Shown here one piece after another: positions 27,917-58,626 of a DNA stretch of 64,000 bases. Made by a program: the position numbers and the translations under genes. Origin of the DNA: a virus; the IMG/VR virus record IMGVR_UViG_3300049434_000028, positions 1 to 64,000 of that record, one strand, 5' to 3'. The notes under the pieces were generated by a model. The model had not been told where the DNA came from. It saw only the letters and a program-made list of their open reading frames with translations, and made no database searches. Every line of letters begins with the position of its first letter. Position 1 is the first letter of the stretch.

Positions 27917-30601
27917 TCAAGCTCCGTTCACGGTGTTCCAGTCGGGATAGCTTGCAAGCACGGAGGCCCACGTAGCCGGTGCTGTAGCCAGTGTCCCCCA
28001 GGTCTGGCTGGAACGAGCCCAGTCGATCTCAACGCTGCTACCGACCACCACGAGCGGCGACGGCGCCGGGTAGATGTCGTAGTTGATCAGCGCCCACTGA
28101 GGAATGAAGACGGGCTGCGCCGGGGCCGCAGTGACGAACGCCAGGGACTCCACGGTCTCCTCGTCCAGCCAATGCGTCTGCGGGTGCGGGAGGAACTGCG
28201 GGGCCAGCTCCAGGAGCCGCTGCTCCTTGATCCCACGACGGCTGTAGTAGTGCGACCGGGATGCGTTCGGCGTGCCCTCCCAGAGATACTCCACGCTGGT
28301 CGACGCGCTGTCGCCGGAGAAGTAGAACACCTCGTCGAACCGCCCCTTGATCAGCGCGACATGGCGGAACCGCACGGCGTCGAACGTGCTTGTAGCGGGC
28401 AGCGGGGGCATCGTCGGCGCGGGCGAGAACGGAGGCTGGTTGATGTACAGCACGCCACTACCCCCGAAGCTCGCAGCATTCGGGCCAGAGACCGGCAGCA
28501 GATCCGGCTGCGGGAGACGGGTCACCGCCAGAGTGCCCGTACCGCCGAGCACGCAGGAGTTGGCCGTCACCGGCTGAGTAGCGCGCAGCGGACCGATCGT
28601 GGCCTGGCGCAGGCGAGTGATGGCCACCGCGCCCTCGATGGCGGTCACCGAGCCGTCGGCGGGGACCGTGTACTGGAGCACGACGTCCTGCCAGGCCGCA
28701 GTGCCGACGTTGCCCTGGCTCACCGTGTCCGTGAGCCGGATGAGATCGGTGTCCTCGTAGTGGTACGGGTTCCCACCCACGCTGCCGGAGAACTGCCGCA
28801 GGTGCCAGACGACGTCCAACTCCACCGAGAACGGTGCGTCGAAGGGAACGCCGTCCTCGGCAATCGAGGCTGCGCGCATCTGCGCGAACAGCGTCACGGT
28901 CTCGCCAGGCTCTACCGGCACGCGCGGCGTCGTAGCTACGTAGCGGCGATCCCCCGCGCTCACCTGGTCACCGGAGGACCAGTGCAGCAGCAGACCATCG
29001 GTGCCCGCGCTCAGCCCCGCAGTGGCGCCGCGCCAATTCTGGATGCCGCCGATGCCGTTGGGGTTGTAGACCTCGTTGATCAGCTCGGCGAGCAGGGCGA
29101 TGAGAGCCTGGCGCGCGGGCTTGTACGGACCGGGTACGCCGAACGGCGCCACCTCCTCGAACTGTGCCCCATTCAGCAGCAGCATGGCGGTAGGCGTCAC
29201 CGCAGCGGTCACCGTGCCGGTCCCGCCCGTGGGCGCAGGAAGCAACGGCGAGGCGTCGCGGCCCGCCAGCGCGCCGATGAAGCTGACCGTCCACGGGCCG
29301 TTGTTCGGCTGTGGCAAAGGCGCGGTCACCTGGACGTTGCCGACCCCGATGCTCGGCAGACCTTCCAGCGCGCTCTGGACCTGCGCCGCGGTGGAGGAGG
29401 CCGCGATCGAGACGGTGGTGTCCGGCCCGTAGGTGAGGGTGAAGCTGGTCAGTCCTGAACCACCCTCAGTGATGAGCGTGGTCTCGTTGGAGACGACGCG
29501 CAGGGCCGCGTAACGTGCTCCCGGAGGAGCGATCGAGACGTTGGCCATTCGCAGCCAGCCGCCACCCGCCAGCGAGGTAGCCGAACCTGCGGAGGTGGCC
29601 ACCAGCTCACCGGCAATGCCGTACCAGTCGATGTGCACCTGCGCGGTGTTGCCGCCGTAGACGTACAGCGAGGCGGCATAGGTGCGCCCCTGGATGATGG
29701 GGATGGAATGCAGCCGTCCGGTGCGCCCATCCTTCGAGGTGGACAGCGAGAACGGGACCAGCGGGTCTGCAGGGATGACGGCGACGTAGCCACGCCCGTA
29801 CGGCGCAGAGAGCGCCGTAGTGTTGTTACGCACCTCCAGCGTGCAGCGATCGAGCATAGTGTCCCAGCGGCCGAAGGACAGGTCGGTGAGCGCATCCAGG
29901 TTGTCGAGCATCTTGTTCGGCCCGATCGTCACCGATGCATCCCAGTCGGTCAGGATGTTGGTGAGGTTCTCCAGCGCGAGCCGTTTGCCCTTGTCCTTGT
30001 ACAGCTCCACTGCGCCAAGCGCGAGCTGGCGACGAGCACGAGGGTTCAGCTCGGGCTCGGAGGTGAACCCGAGCTGGTTGAGCAGCGCGGGCAGCAGGAT
30101 CTCCGGCACGCTTCCGGCGTCCAGGTGCAACAGCTCGTCCAGCTCAGCGCGCGTCTGGTCCAGCTCGAACCCGAACAGCGTGAGGAACCGGTAAAGCGGG
30201 TTGGTCGGATTCGGAGTACCCGTCAGATTTTGAAAGCTGTCGAGCTTATACAGGTTGGGCAGTCGGTCCCACAGGGCGTCGACATAGCCGTGGTCCTTGG
30301 CCACGAGTACATCGGTGGACCCGGCATTGACCCATCCGTCATCGACGTCGACCGCGTTGAAGAAGAGCCCGTAGTAGTAGCGCTTCCCCGGCGTTACCAC
30401 GGAGTCGGTGTAGGTGTTGAGCGAGGTGAAGGAGGAGAGCACCACCACGCCGTCGTCCACCGAGATCGGTGCACCGTTGGAATTGCGGACCAGCCGAAGC
30501 TCGGTCCAGCCCGCGGTGATCCCCGCCCAGGAGAGCGCGACGACTCCGTAGTCGACGCAGACCGCTTGTGGGTCTGCGAAGTAGAGGGACGTTGGTGCCA
30601 T
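27917..30601 (-). CDS. Tail protein I-like baseplate protein fused to fibre region
   Basis: 894 residues from ATG 30601 with GGAGG upstream. Residues about 100-250 match the P2 gpI/TIGR02242 tail-protein I type: YVDALWDRLPNLYKLDSFQ, FLTLFGFELDQTRAELDELL, PEILLPALLNQLGF and RRQLALGAVELYKDKGK. The long remainder is Gly/Ser/Thr/Pro-rich with fibre-like strands, including GGTGTLAVTRLP and GGSGVLYINQ (the repeat seen in the 914-residue protein). N-terminal 100 residues are fibronectin-like (ALSWAGITAGWTELRL). It probably caps the baseplate wedge and attaches fibres. Confidence 0.78.
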   Translation of the reverse strand: MAPTSLYFADPQAVCVDYGVVALSWAGITAGWTELRLVRNSNGAPISVDDGVVVLSSFTSLNTYTDSVVTPGKRYYYGLFFNAVDVDDGWVNAGSTDVLVAKDHGYVDALWDRLPNLYKLDSFQNLTGTPNPTNPLYRFLTLFGFELDQTRAELDELLHLDAGSVPEILLPALLNQLGFTSEPELNPRARRQLALGAVELYKDKGKRLALENLTNILTDWDASVTIGPNKMLDNLDALTDLSFGRWDTMLDRCTLEVRNNTTALSAPYGRGYVAVIPADPLVPFSLSTSKDGRTGRLHSIPIIQGRTYAASLYVYGGNTAQVHIDWYGIAGELVATSAGSATSLAGGGWLRMANVSIAPPGARYAALRVVSNETTLITEGGSGLTSFTLTYGPDTTVSIAASSTAAQVQSALEGLPSIGVGNVQVTAPLPQPNNGPWTVSFIGALAGRDASPLLPAPTGGTGTVTAAVTPTAMLLLNGAQFEEVAPFGVPGPYKPARQALIALLAELINEVYNPNGIGGIQNWRGATAGLSAGTDGLLLHWSSGDQVSAGDRRYVATTPRVPVEPGETVTLFAQMRAASIAEDGVPFDAPFSVELDVVWHLRQFSGSVGGNPYHYEDTDLIRLTDTVSQGNVGTAAWQDVVLQYTVPADGSVTAIEGAVAITRLRQATIGPLRATQPVTANSCVLGGTGTLAVTRLPQPDLLPVSGPNAASFGGSGVLYINQPPFSPAPTMPPLPATSTFDAVRFRHVALIKGRFDEVFYFSGDSASTSVEYLWEGTPNASRSHYYSRRGIKEQRLLELAPQFLPHPQTHWLDEETVESLAFVTAAPAQPVFIPQWALINYDIYPAPSPLVVVGSSVEIDWARSSQTWGTLATAPATWASVLASYPDWNTVNGA

Positions 30602-46721: not shown

Positions 46722-49082
46722 TTAGACAGCCTCTACGAGAATCTGACGAGCCGTCAATGTACCAATAGTGGTGGTCGCGGTCAGGTCGATGTAGAACAAC
46801 GCCGTGGTGGGAATCGAGCCGACCACCTCGGCTGCCGGTGCCTTGGAGTAGATGACCGCGGAGGTACCAGCCGTAGCCACTGCCTGACTCGTGACCTGCC
46901 CATGCGCCACCAACGTCGAGCTGGCACCCAACGCCACTACCTGCACGACGGCGTCCACGTAATAGATCTGGTTGGCCACCGCTGCTGCTGAGACGTTGGA
47001 GGCCCACAGCAGCGTCGTGTCACCGCCTACGGTTCCCGCGGTACCCGCACGGATGCCCACGATGACGGTGCCGGTAGACGACGCCTGCAGCTCTGCCTTG
47101 ATCAGGAACGTCTGGCCCACCACCACCGAGTTGGCCGGGATCCGAACAACGGCCATGATCGTCTCGGACGTACCCGAGGTGACCGCACCACGCCCTGCGA
47201 TGACCGCCGAGCCCGTGGACCCGAGTAGCTGCAGAATCCCGGTGCCGGACATGAGCCCCGAGTTCTGGCTGATCCGCTTGCTCACCCCCACCACAGCCGC
47301 GGAAGCGTCAGCCAGCGGGGCCACGCTCGCGCCGTCCATCTGGTTATCCCCGACGGAGAGCGCACCAAGGCCAGAGGTGCCTGCCTGGATGTCGACGTGC
47401 GTCGCGTTGGTGACCGTCAGGTTGCTGTTCGGACCGAAGATGCAACCATTGATGCGCACCTTGGTCTGATTGCTGGCCGAAGGAATGATCCGAACGCCAG
47501 CGCCACCAACCCCGTTGAACCCGGTGACTCGGCAGGCCTGGATGTTCACGTCCTGCGCGCCGTTGACCAGGATGCCCGCACCGGTCCCGGTTCCTGCCGC
47601 GTTGTAGATGTCGCAATCGACCAGGGAGATACCCGCAGGAAGCGCGGTAGCTGTACCCACCCCCCCTGCGCCAGTGCCGTTGATCTCTACCGAGTGGTTG
47701 GCGCCCGTAGCAGCGATGCCGCACTGCGTGAACTTGATCCGGTTGGAGGTGAACCCTCCCGTGATCTTGATGACCGAACCCTGAGGCTGGTCGAAGAAGC
47801 AGTTGGTGAAATAGCACGCCTGTGCGCCGAGCGCGGAAGCCGCGTTGAACCAGACGACGTTAGTGCCCTGAATCCAGTCGCAGTTGGTGACCTGTACCGC
47901 ACCACTTGCCTGGATCTCACAGCATGCGCTGGTCGTTGCCGCGCCTGCGTTGATGGTCGCGTTGTGGATCATTACATTGATGGTCGCGCCGTTGATGAAG
48001 ATCCCGCGGCCACCATTGGGGACGCTGCTGATGTCGAGGTCAGACCACACGCTGAGGTTCGCGCTCTGGTTGCCGGTGGCGTTGATGGCCTGGAACATCC
48101 CGGAGAACGCGCACCGGTAGACGTTCATCCCTACGTTGTTGCCGACCGGGATGTTGATCGCGGCTCCGGCGGTCTTGGTGACCGACGTCTGGAAGCCGAT
48201 GTCTGTCCACATGTCGTACCAGCCCGCGACGCTCTTGGTGAACGTGTGCTGGGTGGCGTTGGTCGTCTTGATGATCGAGGCGTAGCGGTTGACGCCCTTG
48301 AAGGTGTAGCGCCGGTCGACGTTGATGTCGATGGCGGCAGAGATCCGGTAGGTACCCGCAGGGATGAACAGCACCGCGCCCGCAGGCATCGTCGAGATCG
48401 CATTGGCGAACTGCGTGTCGTTCAGGGTGCTGTCGTTCCCAACGCCCCCGAAATCAGCTACGAAGTCGTAGTGCAGGTTGTCTATCAGGCGCTTGTCCAG
48501 AGCGGACATCAAGCCCTGCAGGCTCTGCGTGGACGCAGGCAACATCGCGGCTACCTGAGTAGGCGTCAGATCAGCAACCGTTGCCGCGCCGCCAGTGTTG
48601 TTGCCCCGCAGCGTGTTCGCTGCCGCGTTCACCTGCATCGCCAACGTGACGTACCCGCCAGGGATGTCCTGCCAGACGGTGTTGTAGTTCGTCGAGTCAA
48701 TCTTGCGAAGGAACTGCCCAGCCGTACCGCCAGCCACTACCCCTGCGCCTGCGGAGCCGGGTGCACCAGCGGTACCCTGCGCGCCCTGCAGGCTCACCAA
48801 CGCGGACCAGGTACTCACACCGGTCTTGACCTGGTAGCCCTTGTTCGTCGAGTCGAAGTAGACGTCTCCGATCACGCCGAGGGAGTTCGACGGCGCGCCT
48901 GCGCCATTGAAGATCGTGTTCTGCTGCCAGGGCAGGGAATTCCAGGCCGTGACGCCGTCGCCGACCTTGAAGCGCAGAGACGTGGTGGCGAAACCCATCT
49001 CGGCCGCGAGCAGCACCGGGTTGTCCGACGTCCAGTTGGCGTCGGTGGCGTTACGCATCTGGAACTGAACCAGGACGGCCAT
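46722..49082 (-). CDS. Tailspike with collagen-like hinge and right-handed beta-helix (pectate-lyase-like)
   Basis: 786 residues. Residues about 1-75 form a fibre head domain (FQMRNATDANWTSDNPVLLAAEMG, FKVGDGVTAWNSLPW), followed by a collagen-like GAQGTAGAPGSAGAG. The region from about residue 215 (GAVLFIPAGTYRISAAIDINVDRRYTFKGVNR) through 560 has pectate-lyase/right-handed beta-helix features (repeated ITXCX, NCDWIQG). The C-terminal 150 residues are a beta-sandwich type. Likely a receptor-binding spike, possibly a depolymerase; no catalytic set is visible. Confidence 0.75.
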   Translation of the reverse strand: MAVLVQFQMRNATDANWTSDNPVLLAAEMGFATTSLRFKVGDGVTAWNSLPWQQNTIFNGAGAPSNSLGVIGDVYFDSTNKGYQVKTGVSTWSALVSLQGAQGTAGAPGSAGAGVVAGGTAGQFLRKIDSTNYNTVWQDIPGGYVTLAMQVNAAANTLRGNNTGGAATVADLTPTQVAAMLPASTQSLQGLMSALDKRLIDNLHYDFVADFGGVGNDSTLNDTQFANAISTMPAGAVLFIPAGTYRISAAIDINVDRRYTFKGVNRYASIIKTTNATQHTFTKSVAGWYDMWTDIGFQTSVTKTAGAAINIPVGNNVGMNVYRCAFSGMFQAINATGNQSANLSVWSDLDISSVPNGGRGIFINGATINVMIHNATINAGAATTSACCEIQASGAVQVTNCDWIQGTNVVWFNAASALGAQACYFTNCFFDQPQGSVIKITGGFTSNRIKFTQCGIAATGANHSVEINGTGAGGVGTATALPAGISLVDCDIYNAAGTGTGAGILVNGAQDVNIQACRVTGFNGVGGAGVRIIPSASNQTKVRINGCIFGPNSNLTVTNATHVDIQAGTSGLGALSVGDNQMDGASVAPLADASAAVVGVSKRISQNSGLMSGTGILQLLGSTGSAVIAGRGAVTSGTSETIMAVVRIPANSVVVGQTFLIKAELQASSTGTVIVGIRAGTAGTVGGDTTLLWASNVSAAAVANQIYYVDAVVQVVALGASSTLVAHGQVTSQAVATAGTSAVIYSKAPAAEVVGSIPTTALFYIDLTATTTIGTLTARQILVEAV

Positions 49083-50910: not shown

Positions 50911-51366
50911 TTAGTAGAGAATCTCCAGCACGCCGGACTCGGCGTAGTACCAATCAGCTCGGACGGTGTTCGCATCGACGTGAACGACGAGCCCCTCCTT
51001 CTCGGTGATGCCGTCGGACTCGTACAGGTTCACCTCCAGCGGTCGGGCGCCCAGGTTGTGCGTCGCGACCCACGAGGTGGCGGCCGACGCGAAATTGAAG
51101 GCCATGCTCTGCAGCGTTCCGCCTGGCGCGCCAGGAGCCCCCGGAGTGCCAGGTGTGCCGGGCGATCCAGGTGCACCTGGTGGGCCAGGAGGACCGATCA
51201 GACCGTGACCGGAATGTACGACGACACGCTCTCCGGGAGTGGAGACCACCTCCCGCGCTACCTCGTTGACCGCTACCTGCGAGGACACCAACGGCGTCGT
51301 GATGATCTCGCGCCGGACGACATTGGTCGTCACGTCCTCATTGGTGTCACGCCGTTGCACACCCAT
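50911..51366 (-). CDS. Collagen-like short tail fibre protein
   Basis: 151 residues. N-terminal Thr/Val-rich part, then collagen repeats GLIGPPGPPGAPGSPGTPG with PGAPGAPGG, then a C-terminal fibre domain (AFNFASAATSWVATHNLGARPLEVNLYE and VVHVDANTVRADWYYAE). The C-terminal domain is shared with the fibre at 49316-50896. Collagen triplets usually serve as trimeric shafts. Confidence 0.75.
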   Translation of the reverse strand: MGVQRRDTNEDVTTNVVRREIITTPLVSSQVAVNEVAREVVSTPGERVVVHSGHGLIGPPGPPGAPGSPGTPGTPGAPGAPGGTLQSMAFNFASAATSWVATHNLGARPLEVNLYESDGITEKEGLVVHVDANTVRADWYYAESGVLEILY

Positions 51367-52538: not shown

Positions 52539-53690
52539 CTATACCCCCGGCGGGTACTGCTGACCGACGTACACACGCTGCGCGCTGCCGGTACCGGTGA
52601 TCCCGGAGTCGACCGGCGGGTACACACGAATGGGAGCTGACTGGTCGTCATACTCCCGATCGGTGTAGATGGGGACGTAGCGTCCGGTCGTCCGGGAGAC
52701 GCGCCGCAGCGTGAACATCTCAATCCGCGAGAGCCCGACGTTGAGCTGCTGGGAGAGCGTGTTGTAGCGCTCCTGCTGCGCCTTGATCATTTCCATGATC
52801 GCGCGGTAACGCTCCTGCCGCGGGAGATTGGTGCCCTCCGCGGTCGTGACGTCGATGTCGTAGCTGGCGTCGGCCGCGAGCGCCCACAGCGCCTCGATGG
52901 CGGCCAGCAACGCGACGGGGTGCTCCTCCACCAGCGGAAGGTTGGTGAACTCCTGCACGGCTGTCGTGTACGTCATCCGGCCGGTCAGCGGATCACGGTA
53001 GATCGTACGGTCCGTAGTGCCGTGCGCGTGCTTCCAGAAGGCCGACTCGATGAACCGGTCCAACTCCTCGTCCAGGAAGAACTGCGCGTACTGGCCGCGC
53101 ACGAACAGCTTGCTGCCCAAAGCGACCGGCACGATGGTCGTGATGATGCCGGTGCGCGTCTCCAGGGTGTAGTCGGCATCAGGTACGAGCGGGACCGCGG
53201 TGGTCTCCCCGTCAATCTGCACGAGCACCTGCAACGTGCCCGGCAGGACGGACTCGGCCGGAAGATCGAAGCGTGTCGCCATGCCGTCGCCAGGCTGCGC
53301 GATCGAAAAGCCCTGGATGTAGTCGGCGATCTCGATCCGCAGCCGGTCGCGGATCCGCGTGATCGTGGTGCCCTGCGGGTTCAGGTCGGGCAGCGGGGGC
53401 GCAGGAATCGGAGCCAGCAGAACGTTGACGAGCCCTGCCTGGTTGACGCTGTGCTCGCCGTCAGATGTGCTCAGCAGCACGTAGTAGAAGCCGCTCGGCG
53501 TGGTGCGCGGGACTGTGACGTGGATGCTCACGCCGCTGTCGATGGTGAAGTCCTGAGTGAACACGTACTCGCTCGTGTCGTTGTCCACCAGCCCTACCAT
53601 GGCCACCCGGCCGAAGCCCGTGCCCACAACGATGATCTGGTTCCCGACCGCGACCGGTGAGGTGACAGCGGTGATGACGGGGGCTGTCAT
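52539..53690 (-). CDS. Structural protein with IPT/TIG-like N-terminus, 383 aa
   Basis: Residues about 1-90 resemble an IPT/TIG beta sandwich: APVITAVTSPVAVGNQIIVVGTGFG, VSIHVTVPRTTPSGFYYVLLSTSDG. The middle (TRIRDRLRIEIADYIQGF, AQFFLDEELDRFIESAFWKHAHG) and the C-terminal helical region (RQERYRAIMEMIKAQQERYNTLSQQLNVGLSRIEMF, RYVPIYTDREYDD) are of the type seen in head-proximal connector proteins. The role is not certain. Confidence 0.6.
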   Translation of the reverse strand: MTAPVITAVTSPVAVGNQIIVVGTGFGRVAMVGLVDNDTSEYVFTQDFTIDSGVSIHVTVPRTTPSGFYYVLLSTSDGEHSVNQAGLVNVLLAPIPAPPLPDLNPQGTTITRIRDRLRIEIADYIQGFSIAQPGDGMATRFDLPAESVLPGTLQVLVQIDGETTAVPLVPDADYTLETRTGIITTIVPVALGSKLFVRGQYAQFFLDEELDRFIESAFWKHAHGTTDRTIYRDPLTGRMTYTTAVQEFTNLPLVEEHPVALLAAIEALWALAADASYDIDVTTAEGTNLPRQERYRAIMEMIKAQQERYNTLSQQLNVGLSRIEMFTLRRVSRTTGRYVPIYTDREYDDQSAPIRVYPPVDSGITGTGSAQRVYVGQQYPPGV

Positions 53691-53704: not shown

Positions 53705-53851
53705 TCAGTCCTGCGTGACGTAGGAGACCTGCTCCGCGGTGTAGATCAGATCAGGGTCGGGTCGGAAGGCCACGGGGACCTTCCCTACGGTGCCCAGCGT
53801 GCCAGAGCCGGTGAGCATGGTTGTCGAGACGTACTCCTGCGGACCGCTCAC
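53705..53851 (-). CDS. Small LSGSG-repeat protein, 48 aa
   Basis: GTG 53851 with GGAGGGCCCCG upstream, overlapping the end of the 914-residue gene by a GTGA. The product contains one MLTGSGTLGTVGK unit and PDPDLIYTAEQVSYV, which recalls the C-terminal DPPPLVYAVEASPVPV of the large gene. It may be a separate capping piece of the same fibre. Confidence 0.55.
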   Translation of the reverse strand: MSGPQEYVSTTMLTGSGTLGTVGKVPVAFRPDPDLIYTAEQVSYVTQD

Positions 53852-56592
53852 CGGGGCCCTCCTCTGTCCTTCAGCACCGGTACCGGCGAGGCCTCGACCG
53901 CGTACACCAACGGCGGCGGGTCGGCCACGATACCGATCGACGCCTCCTGCGCGTAGATGGTCGGTGCATCGAAGCCACGGAAGCTGATCCCTGCTCGCCC
54001 GGCCAGAGAGAGTGCGCCAGCGCCGGACAGAGAGAGCGGGCTGCCCTCGTTGATCGCCACAACGACGGCCAGCGCGCCTGCACCGCTCAGCGGCACGTCC
54101 TGCCGAGCCCCCGACACGACGCCTTCGAGGAGCGCGCCCAAACCGGTAAGCGCCACGGCCGCCGACGTCTGGACGGTCGTGGCGATGCCCAGCACTCCCA
54201 GACTGGATAGCTGGGCGCTCCCCGTCGTCGTCAGCGTCGTGGTGAGGGTGAGCGCGCCTGCACCGCTCAGCACTGCAGCAGCAACCGCGGTAGCCGACAC
54301 CTGCGCAACGACGAGCTGGCCAGCGCCAGAGAGCCCCAGGGGCTGAGTTATCGCCAGGGTGCCCGTGTCGACCAGCGTGCCAGAGCCGTTCAACGGAACC
54401 GCGCTGGACGCCGTTGGAGCGCTGCCCGCGGTGACCAACGTTCCAGACCCGGCCAGCACGAAGGAGACGGACACGGCCGGGGTGCCCGCGCCCGCCAACG
54501 TGCCGCTACCGGACAGCGGGACGGCGCGCGACGTCGTGATGGACGTAGGCACCGGGACGAGTTGGCCAGAGCCACTCAGAACACCTGGTTGCGAGTACGC
54601 GGGCACCCCGAGCAGAGAGAGCACTCCTGCGCCCGTCAGCGGAACGGCGCGTGACGCGGTCATCCCGGTCCCAGCCGGAACGAGTGAGCCCGCCCCGCTC
54701 AACGACGCGGCGGCCGAGGCCGACGGCGCGCTGCCAACCGTGCCGAGCGTTCCCGATCCGGTGAGCGAGAGGGCGCGCGGGAAATCCGGCGTGCCGGTCG
54801 TGGTCAGCGTTCCCGATCCACTCAGGGTGTCGCTACCCGTGTACGACGGCAGGATGAGGAACGAGAGCGCTCCCGTGCCGGATAGCGCCAGCGGAACCGT
54901 GAACGCCGGGGATCCCGTTGTGACCAGGCTTCCCGAGCCGGTCAGTGTGGCCGAGCCCGAGGTCGAGACCAAGGCCGCCAGCGTCAATGCGCCAGATCCG
55001 GCGAGCGCCGTTGCGCCGCTGGCCGTGAGCGCCGTGGTGAACGTCAACGAGCCGGATCCGCTGAGCGCCCTGGCGCCGGACGCCGTCGTCAACGATGCGA
55101 CCGGAGTCAGCGCACCGCTGCCGGAGAGCGACGCGCTTCCCGACACCGTGACCAGGCTGGCCGAGCCCGTCAACGACCCGGAGCCCGAAAGCACGCCCGG
55201 CCCGGTGAAGGCGATGGTGCTCGCCAAGGACAGCGTTCCCGAGCCCGTCAACGCAGCCGTGGCCGATGCCGTCGGCGCGCTCCCTACGGGCGAGAGCACA
55301 CCGGAGCCAGACAACGCCATGGAGACCGGGAACGCGGGAGTCGCGGCCGTCAGGGTCAGCGTGCCCGACCCGGTCAGCGGCGCGTTGTCCAACGGGCCAG
55401 GGAAGTTGATCCCGCCGACAACCGTTATGCCTGTATTCGAGGATGAGGTAATAACAGCGAGATCGACGCGGTTGAGCGGAATCGCAATCGTGATCGCACC
55501 GGAATGCCGAGTGGTCCAACTAGAGGCGTCCGAAGAGGTCTCTAGGAAGATCGTCCCAGATGATTCCCGGAACCGCAGGTACCTGTGCGTAGTGGCGCTG
55601 TAAGTGAAGGTGGTGCCGGAGGTTATCGTCCCGTCAATCTTGATCGTAGTGAACACAGTGCCATTGGTGATCTGGAAATTCACGTCATGGGCAGTGGTGT
55701 TGAACGAAGTAGACGTGTTCACCGGAAAATAGAGGTTCCACCACACGGTGTTGCTCGTAGCAACGGGAATCGTCAGCGTATCCAGGTAGGCCGAACTGCC
55801 CACCAAGTTAACGCAGAAGGACGGCAGCGAATGCACACTGTTGAATGCACTGTTCACCGGGAATGTCGCGGTGCCGTTCCCGATAGTGACCGAGGTGTTG
55901 GCAGAGTACATCTGATTGCTAGGCAGACTCTGCCCTGTAGTGAATGTGCCGGACCCGTTGAACCCCTCAATGAAGGTGGAGGCCGTGATCCCGGTGGTGT
56001 AGAACAAGGTGTCGAAGCCCTTGAACTCCACCCACCCAGGCTCTGTGGTGACGTTGACGCTGCCGTCAGTAAGATCCGTTGACCCGGTATTACCGTAGTT
56101 AATGGTCGCGTTGCCGGACGTTCCCGCCGAGACCTTGTACCCGATCTCCACAACAATGCAGTCACCCGCCGTCACGGCGAGGCTGGACAGCGTCTTACCG
56201 ACTTCCCCGCGGCCGGTGGCCGTCGTCGTCCACGACGTAGCGCCATCCGTGTTGGTCAGCAGAGTTCCGCGCAGCGTGTCGGTGGTCCCCTGCGTCACGA
56301 AGATGTGGACGTGGGTGACCATCGTGACGCCAGCAGGCGCCAGAACGCCGAAAGCCCACGACACCGTAGCGGTCGCAGGAATAGTCCCGGACGTACCCAA
56401 AGGCAGGGATACCCCGCGATACAGCAGGGTCTTATCGGTCGACGATACGACCGCGCGAGTCTTGGTCGCGGCGGCGTTGGTCTTTACGCCCAACCGGCCG
56501 GTGACGAAGGAGGTGGCATCGGTCCAGTCGCCCCGCACGGTGGTCGGGGTGAAAGAGGAGGCGGCGTTGGAGATATAGACCCTGACGGTCAT
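53848..56592 (-). CDS. Repeat-rich fibre or head-decoration protein, 914 aa
   Basis: N-terminal region (MTVRVYISNAASSFTPTTVRGDWTDATSF ...) matches a common actinophage virion domain; residues about 200-390 look like a lectin-type domain. From about residue 405 to 870 there are about 23 tandem units of about 20 residues with core ALSGSGTLxxxGxPxxxxx (L[ST]G[ST]G[ATSV]L), likely a beta-solenoid or beta-prism stack. The C-terminus (GFDAPTIYAQEASIGIVADPPPLVYAVEA) is non-repetitive. Place between capsid and neck genes suggests a head fibre or long tail fibre. Confidence 0.7.
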   Translation of the reverse strand: MTVRVYISNAASSFTPTTVRGDWTDATSFVTGRLGVKTNAAATKTRAVVSSTDKTLLYRGVSLPLGTSGTIPATATVSWAFGVLAPAGVTMVTHVHIFVTQGTTDTLRGTLLTNTDGATSWTTTATGRGEVGKTLSSLAVTAGDCIVVEIGYKVSAGTSGNATINYGNTGSTDLTDGSVNVTTEPGWVEFKGFDTLFYTTGITASTFIEGFNGSGTFTTGQSLPSNQMYSANTSVTIGNGTATFPVNSAFNSVHSLPSFCVNLVGSSAYLDTLTIPVATSNTVWWNLYFPVNTSTSFNTTAHDVNFQITNGTVFTTIKIDGTITSGTTFTYSATTHRYLRFRESSGTIFLETSSDASSWTTRHSGAITIAIPLNRVDLAVITSSSNTGITVVGGINFPGPLDNAPLTGSGTLTLTAATPAFPVSMALSGSGVLSPVGSAPTASATAALTGSGTLSLASTIAFTGPGVLSGSGSLTGSASLVTVSGSASLSGSGALTPVASLTTASGARALSGSGSLTFTTALTASGATALAGSGALTLAALVSTSGSATLTGSGSLVTTGSPAFTVPLALSGTGALSFLILPSYTGSDTLSGSGTLTTTGTPDFPRALSLTGSGTLGTVGSAPSASAAASLSGAGSLVPAGTGMTASRAVPLTGAGVLSLLGVPAYSQPGVLSGSGQLVPVPTSITTSRAVPLSGSGTLAGAGTPAVSVSFVLAGSGTLVTAGSAPTASSAVPLNGSGTLVDTGTLAITQPLGLSGAGQLVVAQVSATAVAAAVLSGAGALTLTTTLTTTGSAQLSSLGVLGIATTVQTSAAVALTGLGALLEGVVSGARQDVPLSGAGALAVVVAINEGSPLSLSGAGALSLAGRAGISFRGFDAPTIYAQEASIGIVADPPPLVYAVEASPVPVLKDRGGPR

Positions 56593-56647
56593 TACTCCAC
56601 CCCCTCCCTACCTGACACCCCTCCTTCGTGCTCAGGAAGGAGCGCGA

Positions 56648-56992
56648 CTAGCTCTGGGTGTAGGTGAAGGTGACCGTGTAGGTGCCCTGGCTGGCGAACG
56701 CCTGCGAGGTCACGGATGCACCGTCGTAGTACGTGCCCGCCGTGACCGCAGAGTGCACGCCTGCACCAACGAGGGTGGTACCGGTCGGGATGTCAAAGAC
56801 CGCGGTGGCCGAAGTGACACCGGCCGAGCTGGCCGACCAGGACAGGCTCTTACGCGCATACGCCGGGGAACCACCGGAAGGCTCGGTACCTGCCGACGCG
56901 CCGGGGGCGGTGGTGTAGACCGCCCCGTAGAGGGCCGAGCCCTTGTACGCGTCGGACAGGATGTTCTTCATCGCGTTGGTCTGGATTGCCAT
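56648..56992 (-). CDS. Phage tail fibre-like small protein, 114 aa
   Basis: ATG at 56992. Sequence AIQTNAMKNILSDAYKGSALYGAVYTTAPG, SAYARKSLSWS-type stretch and DIPTGTTLVGAGVHSAVTAGTYYDGASVTSQAFASQGTYTVTF form a widely shared actinophage structural protein (often labelled tail fibre or minor tail protein). Eight-stranded beta pattern is likely. Could be a capsid or fibre decoration. Confidence 0.7.
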   Translation of the reverse strand: MAIQTNAMKNILSDAYKGSALYGAVYTTAPGASAGTEPSGGSPAYARKSLSWSASSAGVTSATAVFDIPTGTTLVGAGVHSAVTAGTYYDGASVTSQAFASQGTYTVTFTYTQS

Positions 56993-56995
56993 GGG

Positions 56996-57268
56996 TCACG
57001 CCTCCGTAGCGGGGTAGAAAGTCCCGGCGTCCGCGACTGCGAGGCCTTCTGGGACGTAGGTGGCTCCGTCGTACCCGCCGGGTCCAGCGTCGTACTCTTC
57101 CGACACCTCGACGAACTGCCAACGCTCCCGAGCGTCCGCAACGTAGGCCTCGATGTACCGGTCTCGCACGTAATCCGTGGCGGTCATCTCCGCGGTCCCA
57201 CCGGGAACCGCGACAATGCTCCTGCATGTCACGCGCCGCTTGTCGATGCGCGGGTCTACCTCAGTCAT
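56996..57268 (-). CDS. Hypothetical virion-region protein, 90 aa
   Basis: Sequence EVDPRIDKRRVTCRSIVAVPGGTAEMTATDYVRDRYIEAYVADARERWQFVEV, then an acidic Gly-rich tail. A beta hairpin and a helix with charge repeats are likely. No family recognised; probably head-tail-associated by location. Confidence 0.55.
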   Translation of the reverse strand: MTEVDPRIDKRRVTCRSIVAVPGGTAEMTATDYVRDRYIEAYVADARERWQFVEVSEEYDAGPGGYDGATYVPEGLAVADAGTFYPATEA

Positions 57269-57286
57269 CCACGTACCTCTCTGCTC

Positions 57287-58105
57287 CTATGCCGGTGAGT
57301 AGCCCTCGACGCGCAGGATCACGCTATCTGGTGTAGGGGCCGCAACGTATGCGAGAGCGGCCTTGGCGAGCAGGGTCAGCGATCCGTACCCGAAGAAAAG
57401 AGGTGCGAGCTGACCGGCATTCGCCACCAACACGCCCTCGCCGGATAGAGCGACCGACGTGAAATTCGGCGCCCCCGACAACTTCAACACGCCGGTTCCG
57501 TTGAGCACGGCCACCGCGGGCCGCCCGACCACCAGCGAGCCGTAGCCCGCGAAGGTCGCATTGTTAGGTCCGCTCTCCGGGTTCGGCGCGGGCGGATCGG
57601 CCGAGGCCACCGCTGCACCGTCGAACGTGCCGCTGCGTCGAAGCCAGATCGGCTTCGCCTGGTTCGGACCGATGGTGCCGAGCTGGATGCCCAGCGCCTT
57701 CGATGGTGCAAGCGAGAACGGCGATGCCAACGACGGAGCCGTGCCCTTATCAGGCACCTTTACCGCCTGCTCCTCGGCCGCGTTGATGCTGCTCGCCGGG
57801 TTGTCGTCCGGTGCGATGTCGATCGTCTGGCCGCCCGGCTTCTGGAACGTCAACCAGGCGACCGCATTGCTGAGCGGGTAGCGCGGATGCCGGTTGACCA
57901 CGAACACGCACTGGTAGTCCACCGCGTTCTGCGAGAACTCGACCGGCGTGGCGCTGGGGAACACCGCACCGATGACGCCGCCGTGGACGACCGACCGAGA
58001 CACCCAACCGCCCAGACTCAGACCGGCCGCGCCATCGGCGGAATCGCCTGACGTAGCGTCAGGAACAGAGAGCCGGTACTCGATCTGGCTCGGGGCGATG
58101 GCCAT
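57287..58105 (-). CDS. Virion protein with C-terminal GxGxL repeats, 272 aa
   Basis: N-terminal half (YRLSVPDATSGDSADGAAGLSLGGWVS, QNAVDYQCVFVVNRHPRYPLSNAVAWLTFQKP, IDIAPDDNPASSINAAEEQAV) is a beta domain of phage structural type. The C-terminal 90 residues contain FAGYGSLVVG, LNGTGVLKLSG and LSGEGVLVANAG, the same repeat type as the 914-residue protein. It may be a head decoration or an anchor for that fibre. Confidence 0.62.
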   Translation of the reverse strand: MAIAPSQIEYRLSVPDATSGDSADGAAGLSLGGWVSRSVVHGGVIGAVFPSATPVEFSQNAVDYQCVFVVNRHPRYPLSNAVAWLTFQKPGGQTIDIAPDDNPASSINAAEEQAVKVPDKGTAPSLASPFSLAPSKALGIQLGTIGPNQAKPIWLRRSGTFDGAAVASADPPAPNPESGPNNATFAGYGSLVVGRPAVAVLNGTGVLKLSGAPNFTSVALSGEGVLVANAGQLAPLFFGYGSLTLLAKAALAYVAAPTPDSVILRVEGYSPA

Positions 58106-58116
58106 CTACTCCTGCT

Positions 58117-58626
58117 TCACCAGGTCAGGCCGCGCTCGTCCAGCCAGGACGCCACCCACCGCGGGACGCGGTAGCGGCGGCCTTCCAGGAACGTGAACGT
58201 GTTGCCGTACCCGAGGGTGATGTCCTCCAGGTCGGTGTTGATGCGCACGACGACCTTCTCATTGAGGTATTCGACCGTCTGTGCGTGAACGACGCCGTTG
58301 GCCTGAGCCTGGGCCTGCGGGTCGGGAAGCTCCTCGATCTGCATCGTGGCGGTGCTGGATCCGATGAGACGCGGGGCGTCATCATCGTCGTCGTCCTCGT
58401 CCATGCGCGTCACCGCGCCGGAGTTAGCGTTGATGACCTCGCGGGTCTCCAGGTCGATGATGTCCTCGTCGACCGAACGTGCAGCGGCCTGCGTCAACAA
58501 GCTGATCTCACCCTCACGGGCCTTGATCTCCTCCGAGTGCTCGCGCGCGAGTTCTTCCCGCTTGCGACCGGTGACGTCGCCAGGGCGCGCCTGACGACCA
58601 GGACGGGTACGCGGCTGTGCTGTCAT
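58117..58626 (-). CDS. Head-associated hypothetical protein, 169 aa
   Basis: ATG 58626. Residues 1-45 are basic and helical (RPGRQARPGDVTGRKREELAREHSEE), residues about 50-95 contain an Asp run, and the end (VEYLNEKVVVRINTDLEDITLGYGNTFTFLEGRRYRVPRWVASWLDERGL) is a strand-helix unit like head-completion or decoration proteins. Directly after the major capsid protein in gene order. Confidence 0.6.
   Translation of the reverse strand: MTAQPRTRPGRQARPGDVTGRKREELAREHSEEIKAREGEISLLTQAAARSVDEDIIDLETREVINANSGAVTRMDEDDDDDDAPRLIGSSTATMQIEELPDPQAQAQANGVVHAQTVEYLNEKVVVRINTDLEDITLGYGNTFTFLEGRRYRVPRWVASWLDERGLTW

Follow-up and report, generated by a model that had tools for sequence, protein, structure and literature searches.

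Accessory fibres and spikes of phage particles have been described in several arrangements. For phage Sf14, the available portion of the source gives two sets of neck whiskers (gp30 and gp31) and an adapter, gp37 (PMC11821841). Lactococcal 936 phages have a neck passage structure (NPS) which the excerpted text presents as optional fibres on the neck whose carbohydrate-binding modules vary (PMC6669499), and in the head spike of the gene transfer agent RcGTA, according to the part of the article at hand, a jellyroll base is paired with a fibre for attachment to the capsule (PMC7296036). Here we analyse a block of genes at positions 53705-58105 of a 64,000-base stretch of viral DNA (the window, i.e., bases 1-64000 of the 102,797-base IMG/VR record IMGVR_UViG_3300049434_000028), whose largest gene encodes a 914-aa protein, P0001, with a long array of LSGSGTL-type repeats, and we compare it with such systems.

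The capsid protein encoded in the window is about 73% identical to those of the Streptomyces phages BRock, GiJojo, LuckySocke, Alone3 and pSt2308, and in the four of these phages that were compared further the portal is about 56% and the sheath (over two segments) about 40-51% identical. As BRock is a myovirus according to the portion of the report available (PMC7453282), the window can be assigned, judging from this sequence likeness, to a Borockvirus-like phage with a contractile tail. The 4.4-kb block lies between two conserved genes in the capsid-to-tail gene stretch, and one small gene separates it from the major capsid gene, which precedes it. We think it reasonably probable that the block is an exchangeable fibre cassette, composed of an adaptor and a beta-solenoid fibre carried on the neck or the tail. 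In such a structure the 23 C-terminal units of the 914-aa protein would stack as rungs into a stiff rod, each unit of 20 or 21 residues giving two short strands of one rung. A 114-aa protein of the phrog_240 family would dock this fibre on the neck or tail, by analogy with proteins of the same fold in other phages, and the terminal domain of the fibre would contact the cell surface.

The array was delineated with the core pattern [LAVM][STNA][GS]xGx[LV], in which the fourth position could only be S, T, A, E, P, L, Y or F. This gave 23 L-x-G-x-G-x-L units in residues 406-861 (core starts 406 to 855), with all 22 core spacings equal to 20 or 21, while 2000 composition shuffles of the whole protein contained 0.54 matches on average and 4 at most. 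The best period in a self-comparison of the array is 41, that is, one unit of 20 plus one of 21 residues. The initial annotation had placed here, at coordinates that proved correct, about 23 units of about 20 residues filling about half of the protein and sharing a constant core; this description holds, the core being near-invariant (one unit reads LSSLGVL).

The gene of the 114-aa protein is situated just upstream of the 914-aa gene, and its product matches phrog_240 over residues 1-110. A phrog_240 protein occurs at the same place in GiJojo and BRock; the window protein is only about 20% identical to these positional counterparts (the capsids being 73% identical), whereas it is 67-81% identical to proteins beside arrays in five other loci (L088, L109, L110, L112 and L140). 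Since this identity is high beside arrays and low in GiJojo and BRock, and since all homologues of the 90-aa gene that precedes the 114-aa gene come from array loci (12 loci), we conclude that the adaptor gene, its 90-aa neighbour and the array behave like a single cassette that changed phage backgrounds.

The pairing was also seen from the side of the adaptor. A search by the 114-aa protein alone gave 12 loci. In 11 of them the same-strand genes downstream encode an LSGSG array with a period of 20 (z 7.4-19.2) and those upstream do not; the twelfth locus, L300, ends 177 bases past the match. Four of the 11 contigs had already been found by the array pattern, two (L294 and L295) have near-identical downstream genes, and about six are new and distinct. 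Among the upstream neighbours of arrays phrog_240 is the commonest family (13 of 84, versus 3 of 78 downstream), and a phrog_240-like gene is present in 36 of 68 array loci, in 33 of them upstream on the same strand. The first phrog_240 model was trained on a pool with array loci and without controls, and its result (35/68 versus 0/80 control loci) is partly circular. As a check, 65 of the 217 control open reading frames (ORFs) of 100-180 aa, one for each control locus that had any (65 of 80), were compared with PHROGs; phrog_240 was absent from the 25 of 33 families listed for them, which leaves it at most one member.

The fold of the 114-aa protein bears on where the cassette might be placed. 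Its model (predicted local distance difference test, pLDDT, 94; predicted template modelling score, pTM, 0.83) was matched by Foldseek to 9mt4_K with E 9.4e-6. It aligns with this chain of the Bas63 connector at Z 12.6 and 1.9 Å over 102 residues, and with 9c39_K of the Sf14 neck at Z 12.6 and 2.0 Å over 102 residues. Weaker matches were a tail chain of HFTV1 (Z 8.6), an arm chain of phi812 (7.9), 8jou_a (7.8) and A511 gp105 (7.8), and the weakest were T4 gp8 (5.5) and a tail-fibre chain of Agrobacterium phage 7-7-1 (5.3); those with Z below 8 may reflect a common arrangement only. The family profile of phrog_240 matches 8jou_a by sequence as well (E 6.4e-12), an entry entitled 'Fiber I and fiber-tail-adaptor of phage GP4'. 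The 114-aa protein is thus confidently predicted to have, across its whole domain, the fold of neck/connector and fibre-adaptor chains. In Gordonia phages (30 records) a relative of this protein, 37-41% identical, was found, and in four of them (L276-L279) its gene is preceded by lysin genes and a minor tail gene and directly followed by that of a 457-507-aa protein, annotated as minor tail protein in two and as hypothetical in two, with a tailspike gene following in one. These 457-507-aa proteins have, by eye, another repeat of about 20 residues, SVAVSGAATxRxRxxL.

On the basis of the fold matches and of the Gordonia gene context, the neck or tail is a likelier site of the 114-aa protein than the head, and 'head protein' is probably a misleading name for phrog_240. 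One could nevertheless suppose that the cassette encodes head spikes or decorations of the RcGTA kind and not neck or tail fibres, given that the block comes after the major capsid gene with one small gene in between, that phrog_240 bears the name it does, and that RcGTA, in the part of the source cited, pairs a jellyroll base with a capsule-attaching fibre (PMC7296036). We regard this as rather unlikely, as the neck/connector, baseplate and tail-fibre adaptor chains matched by the 114-aa fold, and the position of its relative after lysin and minor tail genes in the four Gordonia phages, both argue against it.

What kind of rod the array might form was approached by structure prediction and by sequence profiles. 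In an AlphaFold2 model of residues 398-645 (22 repeat rows; pLDDT 69.8, pTM 0.65) each unit forms two short strands of a beta-solenoid. VIA-align places this model next to the beta-helical antifreeze protein 3p4g (Z 17.5, 232 residues, 3.3 Å) and to 3lyc (Z 14.5, 176 residues, 2.5 Å). In Foldseek the 3lyc chains have E 2.4 or worse, with an array model of moderate confidence, and the best match in BFVD has E 4.9e-3; most of the 34 PDB chains listed by Foldseek we take to be beta-solenoids or beta-helices. Independently of the predicted model, the array profile matches solved chains by sequence, namely 3jx8 (E 1.2e-7), 3lyc (1.8e-6), 4opw (0.014) and 3ljy (0.21), which bear names such as putative lipoprotein, pectinase and adhesin, followed by a leucine-rich repeat protein as the fifth match (E 0.24). 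The first two of these are presumably solenoids of the DUF2807, or head GIN domain, type. The guess of a beta-solenoid made in the initial annotation is supported by the model, by the structural neighbours of the model and by the profile matches. With moderate confidence we regard the array as a predicted beta-solenoid with two strands per unit.

An alternative for the same residues is that they form the shaft of a homotrimeric beta-structured fibre, a triple beta-spiral or an interwoven beta-helix. Many phage fibre shafts are trimeric and built of short beta repeats, and the confidence of the monomer model is only about 70. The best profile matches and the structural neighbours are mostly single-chain beta-solenoids, and for this reason a trimeric shaft seems to us improbable, if worth keeping in mind.

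Arrays of this type recur in viral contigs. A codon pattern demanding three cores 20 residues apart (arrays with other spacings escape it in both collections searched) matched 68 stretches on 65 contigs of IMG/VR. An array ORF was present in all 68, which the pattern nearly guarantees, and there were 69 such ORFs in total, 62 of them distinct by the first 120 array residues, with 3 to 48 cores and with 601 of 915 core spacings being exactly 20 (two per stretch being demanded by the pattern). In 257 billion bases from 84,980 bacterial and archaeal species the same pattern gave nine stretches. Two of them, both from Phycicoccus sp. HDW14, contain an array; the Kitasatospora one encodes a different G-S-G-L-rich protein, and the six others have no array ORF. 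The Phycicoccus arrays probably belong to prophages, since a phrog_240-like gene adjoins one of them. No mention of 'LSGSGTL', 'phrog_240' or '8JOU' was found in open-licence PMC papers. The Ser/Gly/Ala/Thr-rich composition of the units and a pLDDT near 70 could also suit a flexible, low-complexity linker devoid of ordered structure, but we consider this very unlikely in view of the rigid 20/21 spacing, the near-invariant Leu and Gly despite codon saturation, the exact spacings of 20 in the other loci and the solenoid matches.

The array is old and maintained by selection at the protein level. Units of the 914-aa protein are on average 36% identical as protein and 48% as DNA (highest nucleotide identity 0.68), a DNA tandem repeat over the array was looked for and not found, and where two units share a residue they use the same codon in 34.5% of cases (n=1843), whereas codon usage predicts 33.7-36.2%; it is this random level of codon sharing that leads us to the conclusion. 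A recent amplification at the DNA level, which the initial annotation had offered as an option and which would make unit number vary among close isolates, finds an echo in the range of 3 to 48 cores among array ORFs of different loci; yet the synonymous saturation, the low nucleotide identity and the absent tandem repeat contradict it, and being already largely refuted it is extremely improbable. On the plus strand, antisense to most of the array, there is a 414-aa open frame (54359-55603), probably a shadow ORF of GC-rich codons.

The repeat had been reported as dispersed over four virion proteins of the window, of 914, 272, 48 and 894 aa, and this stood for the first three and not for the last. 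We used profiles made from 418 two-unit blocks of other phages, together with a one-unit profile. The two-unit profile finds the 914-aa protein at E 5.3e-53, in line with its LxGxGxL core every 20 residues or so. The 48-aa ORF has one unit, scoring 15.0 bits with the one-unit profile, a score reached by none of 1862 scored shuffles, and it has 11 residues, LTGSGTLGTVG, in common with the 914-aa protein. A GAGGAGGG stretch stands ahead of its GTG start, which shares bases with the 914-aa stop codon, and the ORF is therefore plausible as a coupled gene. For the 272-aa ORF the evidence is weaker: it has four units, at residues 185, 201, 220 and 237 (spacing 16-19), and reaches E 1.1e-4 with the two-unit profile (0 of 1845 scored shuffles equal the score); its score was reached by 4 of 1641 scored shuffles with the one-unit profile and by 7 of 2000 shuffles when it was plainly aligned to the 914-aa array. 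Proteins encoded next to phrog_240 genes in L090, L043 and L032 share its N-terminal domain, which has no match in the PDB at E <= 1; the 272-aa protein may be a second part of the structure.

The 894-aa ORF scores below zero with both profiles (-0.9 with the one-unit and -9.1 with the two-unit profile), and 981 of 1389 and 1427 of 1555 scored shuffles, respectively, are equal or better. It has loose core matches at residues 344, 685 and 712, and the sole hint of the unit is a stretch that resembles the C-terminus of the 272-aa protein (SGPN..F.G.G.L, 3 of 2000 shuffles). That all four are virion proteins is inferred from where their genes lie and, in the case of the 894-aa protein, from its tail homologues as well. 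The strict core, which counts the window 48-aa protein and misses the weaker 272-aa units, occurs in only 2 of 647 non-array ORFs of the 68 other array loci, against 1 of 931 ORFs in control loci; dispersal over several proteins is therefore not general among array loci. We consequently rejected four-protein dispersal, and the suggestion that the repeat links head decoration with tail parts is unsupported, as the tail protein fails the profile test.

The part of the 914-aa protein ahead of the array is of a different character. Its GC content is 0.592 (first 1200 nucleotides) versus 0.654 for the window, and its GC at third codon positions (GC3), 0.765, is below that of the array (0.824) and of most neighbours; the lower GC and GC3 suggest a separate acquisition of this part. 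Among phages no relatives of it were found, the sole match (E 0.03) spanning 29 residues, and there were none in viral contigs or among the fetched loci. The whole protein matched nothing in Pfam or PHROG at E <= 1 and nothing in NCBIfam at E <= 0.01, and it had no match among phages in a BLAST search whose low-complexity filter was on, which therefore says little about the array. In 49 other array proteins the N-terminal regions include Laminin_G_3 (6 of 49), CBM_4_9 (2), PhoD (2) and F5/8 type C (1) domains, and a hydrolase PHROG precedes the array in four array proteins of other phages. As lectin, carbohydrate-binding and hydrolase domains occupy this place elsewhere, the window N-terminal region is, by analogy, probably adhesive to cell-surface glycans.

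At the other end, an R-W-x-G-x-L tail recurs on array proteins of L088, L109, L112, L137, L293 and others, with an R-W-rich C-tail in 11 of 59 arrays that have a complete C-terminus versus 22 of 385 control ORFs (p 0.0017); it was not seen in the window 914-aa protein. Several array proteins start, by eye, with similar stretches. We considered an inverted polarity, in which the variable N-terminus is distal and the array proximal; for this, the similar starts and the R-W tail point opposite ways.

Several observations weigh against a neck or tail fibre cassette as we propose it. Residues 1-399 of P0001 match nothing, which leaves the adhesive role to analogy. The array model is moderate in confidence, monomeric and built on an alignment of repeats; Foldseek finds nothing for it in the PDB at E <= 0.001 (best 0.87), and VIA-align Z values below about 13 can reflect a common arrangement in repeats, Z 14-17 being little above this. 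The single 114-aa sequence has no match to 8jou, and its Z of 7.8 to 8jou_a is below 8. A phrog_240-like gene was not seen in 32 of the 68 array loci, many of them short, and lies downstream in three; when array loci were kept out of the training of the model, the gene was found in only 5 of the 68 versus 0 of 80 controls (p 0.019). Finally, PHROGs and some RefSeq records call phrog_240 a 'head protein'.

The place of the block was followed in relatives chosen by the capsid protein (80 loci and five annotated phage stretches, many of them short; both flanks could be placed in 59). The flanking genes are kept and the interval between them is variable: the flank-to-flank distance is 0.06-1.5 kb in 53 of the 59 loci and 4-7 kb in L011, L013, L026, L030, L041 and L045. 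In the last three the 383-aa counterpart is on the opposite strand, and their intervals are therefore rearranged and not simple inserts; by eye, they have opposite-strand genes after the capsid genes, including endolysin-like and collagen-like ones. No period-20 LSGSG array was found in the stretches of these capsid relatives, where five ORFs have scattered cores only. The slots of L011, L013 and L026, and also L043, where the flanks were not placed, encode a large protein with tandem repeats of other sequence, the best periods being 18-22 or double that. The tailspikes of GiJojo and Alone3 have no such tandem repeats. We may tentatively extend the proposal, in a form we hold to be possible and somewhat doubtful: LSGSGTL arrays would be an undescribed, virus-restricted family of beta-solenoid fibres with a dedicated adaptor of neck-whisker fold, mobile as a neck/tail cassette, and the arrays of other sequence and similar period in L011, L013, L026, L043 and the Gordonia phages would do the same job, rung length and not sequence being conserved.

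Table 1. Positions of the genes and regions discussed (window coordinates, unless a locus is named)
Feature	Position	Strand	Remarks
914-aa repeat protein P0001, proposed fibre	53848..56592	-	ORF with GGGAGGGGGTGGAG ahead of ATG; 23 units
Tandem array, residues 400-875, 23 units of 20/21 aa	53968..55395	-	Predicted beta-solenoid, residues 398-645
P0001 N-terminal non-repeat region, residues 1-399	55396..56592	-	Relatives not found; lower GC
48-aa ORF, one unit	53705..53851	-	GTG start overlapping 914-aa stop codon (GTGA)
114-aa phrog_240 protein, proposed fibre adaptor	56648..56992	-	phrog_240 E 1.7e-9; model pLDDT 94
90-aa protein, cassette partner	56996..57268	-	12 homologues among fetched loci, all array loci
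272-aa protein	57287..58105	-	Relatives of residues 3-160 are encoded next to phrog_240 genes; four weaker units at the C-terminus
169-aa flank, capsid-gene side	58117..58626	-	Conserved in relatives; counterpart is GiJojo gene 72
383-aa flank, opposite side	52539..53690	-	Conserved in relatives; counterpart is GiJojo gene 74
894-aa minor tail protein	27917..30601	-	Named in the initial annotation; unit not supported
L043 large repeat protein	L043:13793-16156		Other-sequence tandem repeat

Other genes of fibre or decoration type lie nearby on the minus strand. A 786-aa protein (46722-49082) has an Mtd_N domain (major tropism determinant N-terminus, E 8.9e-9) and several tail-fibre PHROG matches. 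The 545-aa protein at 49316-50953 matches phrog_2647, 'head decoration', with E 4.1e-22, and by eye VTGGTAGAGVKIAAxTIT is repeated within it. A 151-aa protein (50911-51366) has a collagen-like GPPGPPGAPGSPGTPG stretch and weak tail-fibre PHROG matches.

The proposal provides a testable structure and role for a repeat that many viral contigs share and of which we found no description, and it suggests a fibre adaptor in phrog_240, a family filed as 'head protein'. If it is true, fibres for host recognition could be located in uncultured phages by a simple signature in the sequence, and the array of 20-residue rungs would be a natural rod with a length that the gene reveals.

As regards known systems, the best structural neighbour of the array by Z, the RTX-type antifreeze protein 3p4g, is a calcium-dependent beta-helix. 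RTX beta-rolls bind calcium through GGxGxDxux nonapeptides with Asp, and unlike in these motifs Asp is absent from all 23 window cores, which do not conform to the RTX type. The solenoids of DUF2807, or head GIN domain, likewise have repeats of about 20 residues with a G-S-G motif, and resemble the array by sequence profile and by predicted structure; they are short bacterial proteins and putative adhesins, whereas the window has 23 units in a phage protein. A Porphyromonas DUF2807 protein is an adhesin, and 3ljy and 3pet are DUF2807 structures, as stated in the accessible part of the source (PMC10949514). Seven of 22 array segments tested against Pfam match (best E 1.2e-4), while the window array segment and the whole protein match no family at E <= 1, PF10988 included, and for this reason we did not file the array as DUF2807.

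With the neck and connector chains of Sf14 and Bas63 the 114-aa protein shares its predicted fold over nearly its whole length at only 13-16% identity; unlike the fibre proposed for the window, no solenoid fibre is described for them in the available text (PMC11821841). With GP4, the likeness consists in the phrog_240 profile match and in the fibre-tail adaptor of the 8jou title, GP4 being a podophage according to the portion of the source at hand (PMC11654681) and the window phage a Borockvirus-like myovirus. The NPS of 936 phages is encoded by one gene, whose product is near-identical over the first 180 residues or so, varies at the C-terminus and in some cases has a helical shaft, whereas a separate adaptor and a shaft of beta repeats are proposed for the window. 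In RcGTA the fibre begins with the docking peptide IALGLGLGL, and such an (I/L)-x-(L-G)n peptide was not seen at the start of P0001, which begins MTVRVYISNAASSF; still, Rcc01079 and Rcc01080 are a small beta base protein and a single fibre protein, much like the pair proposed here.

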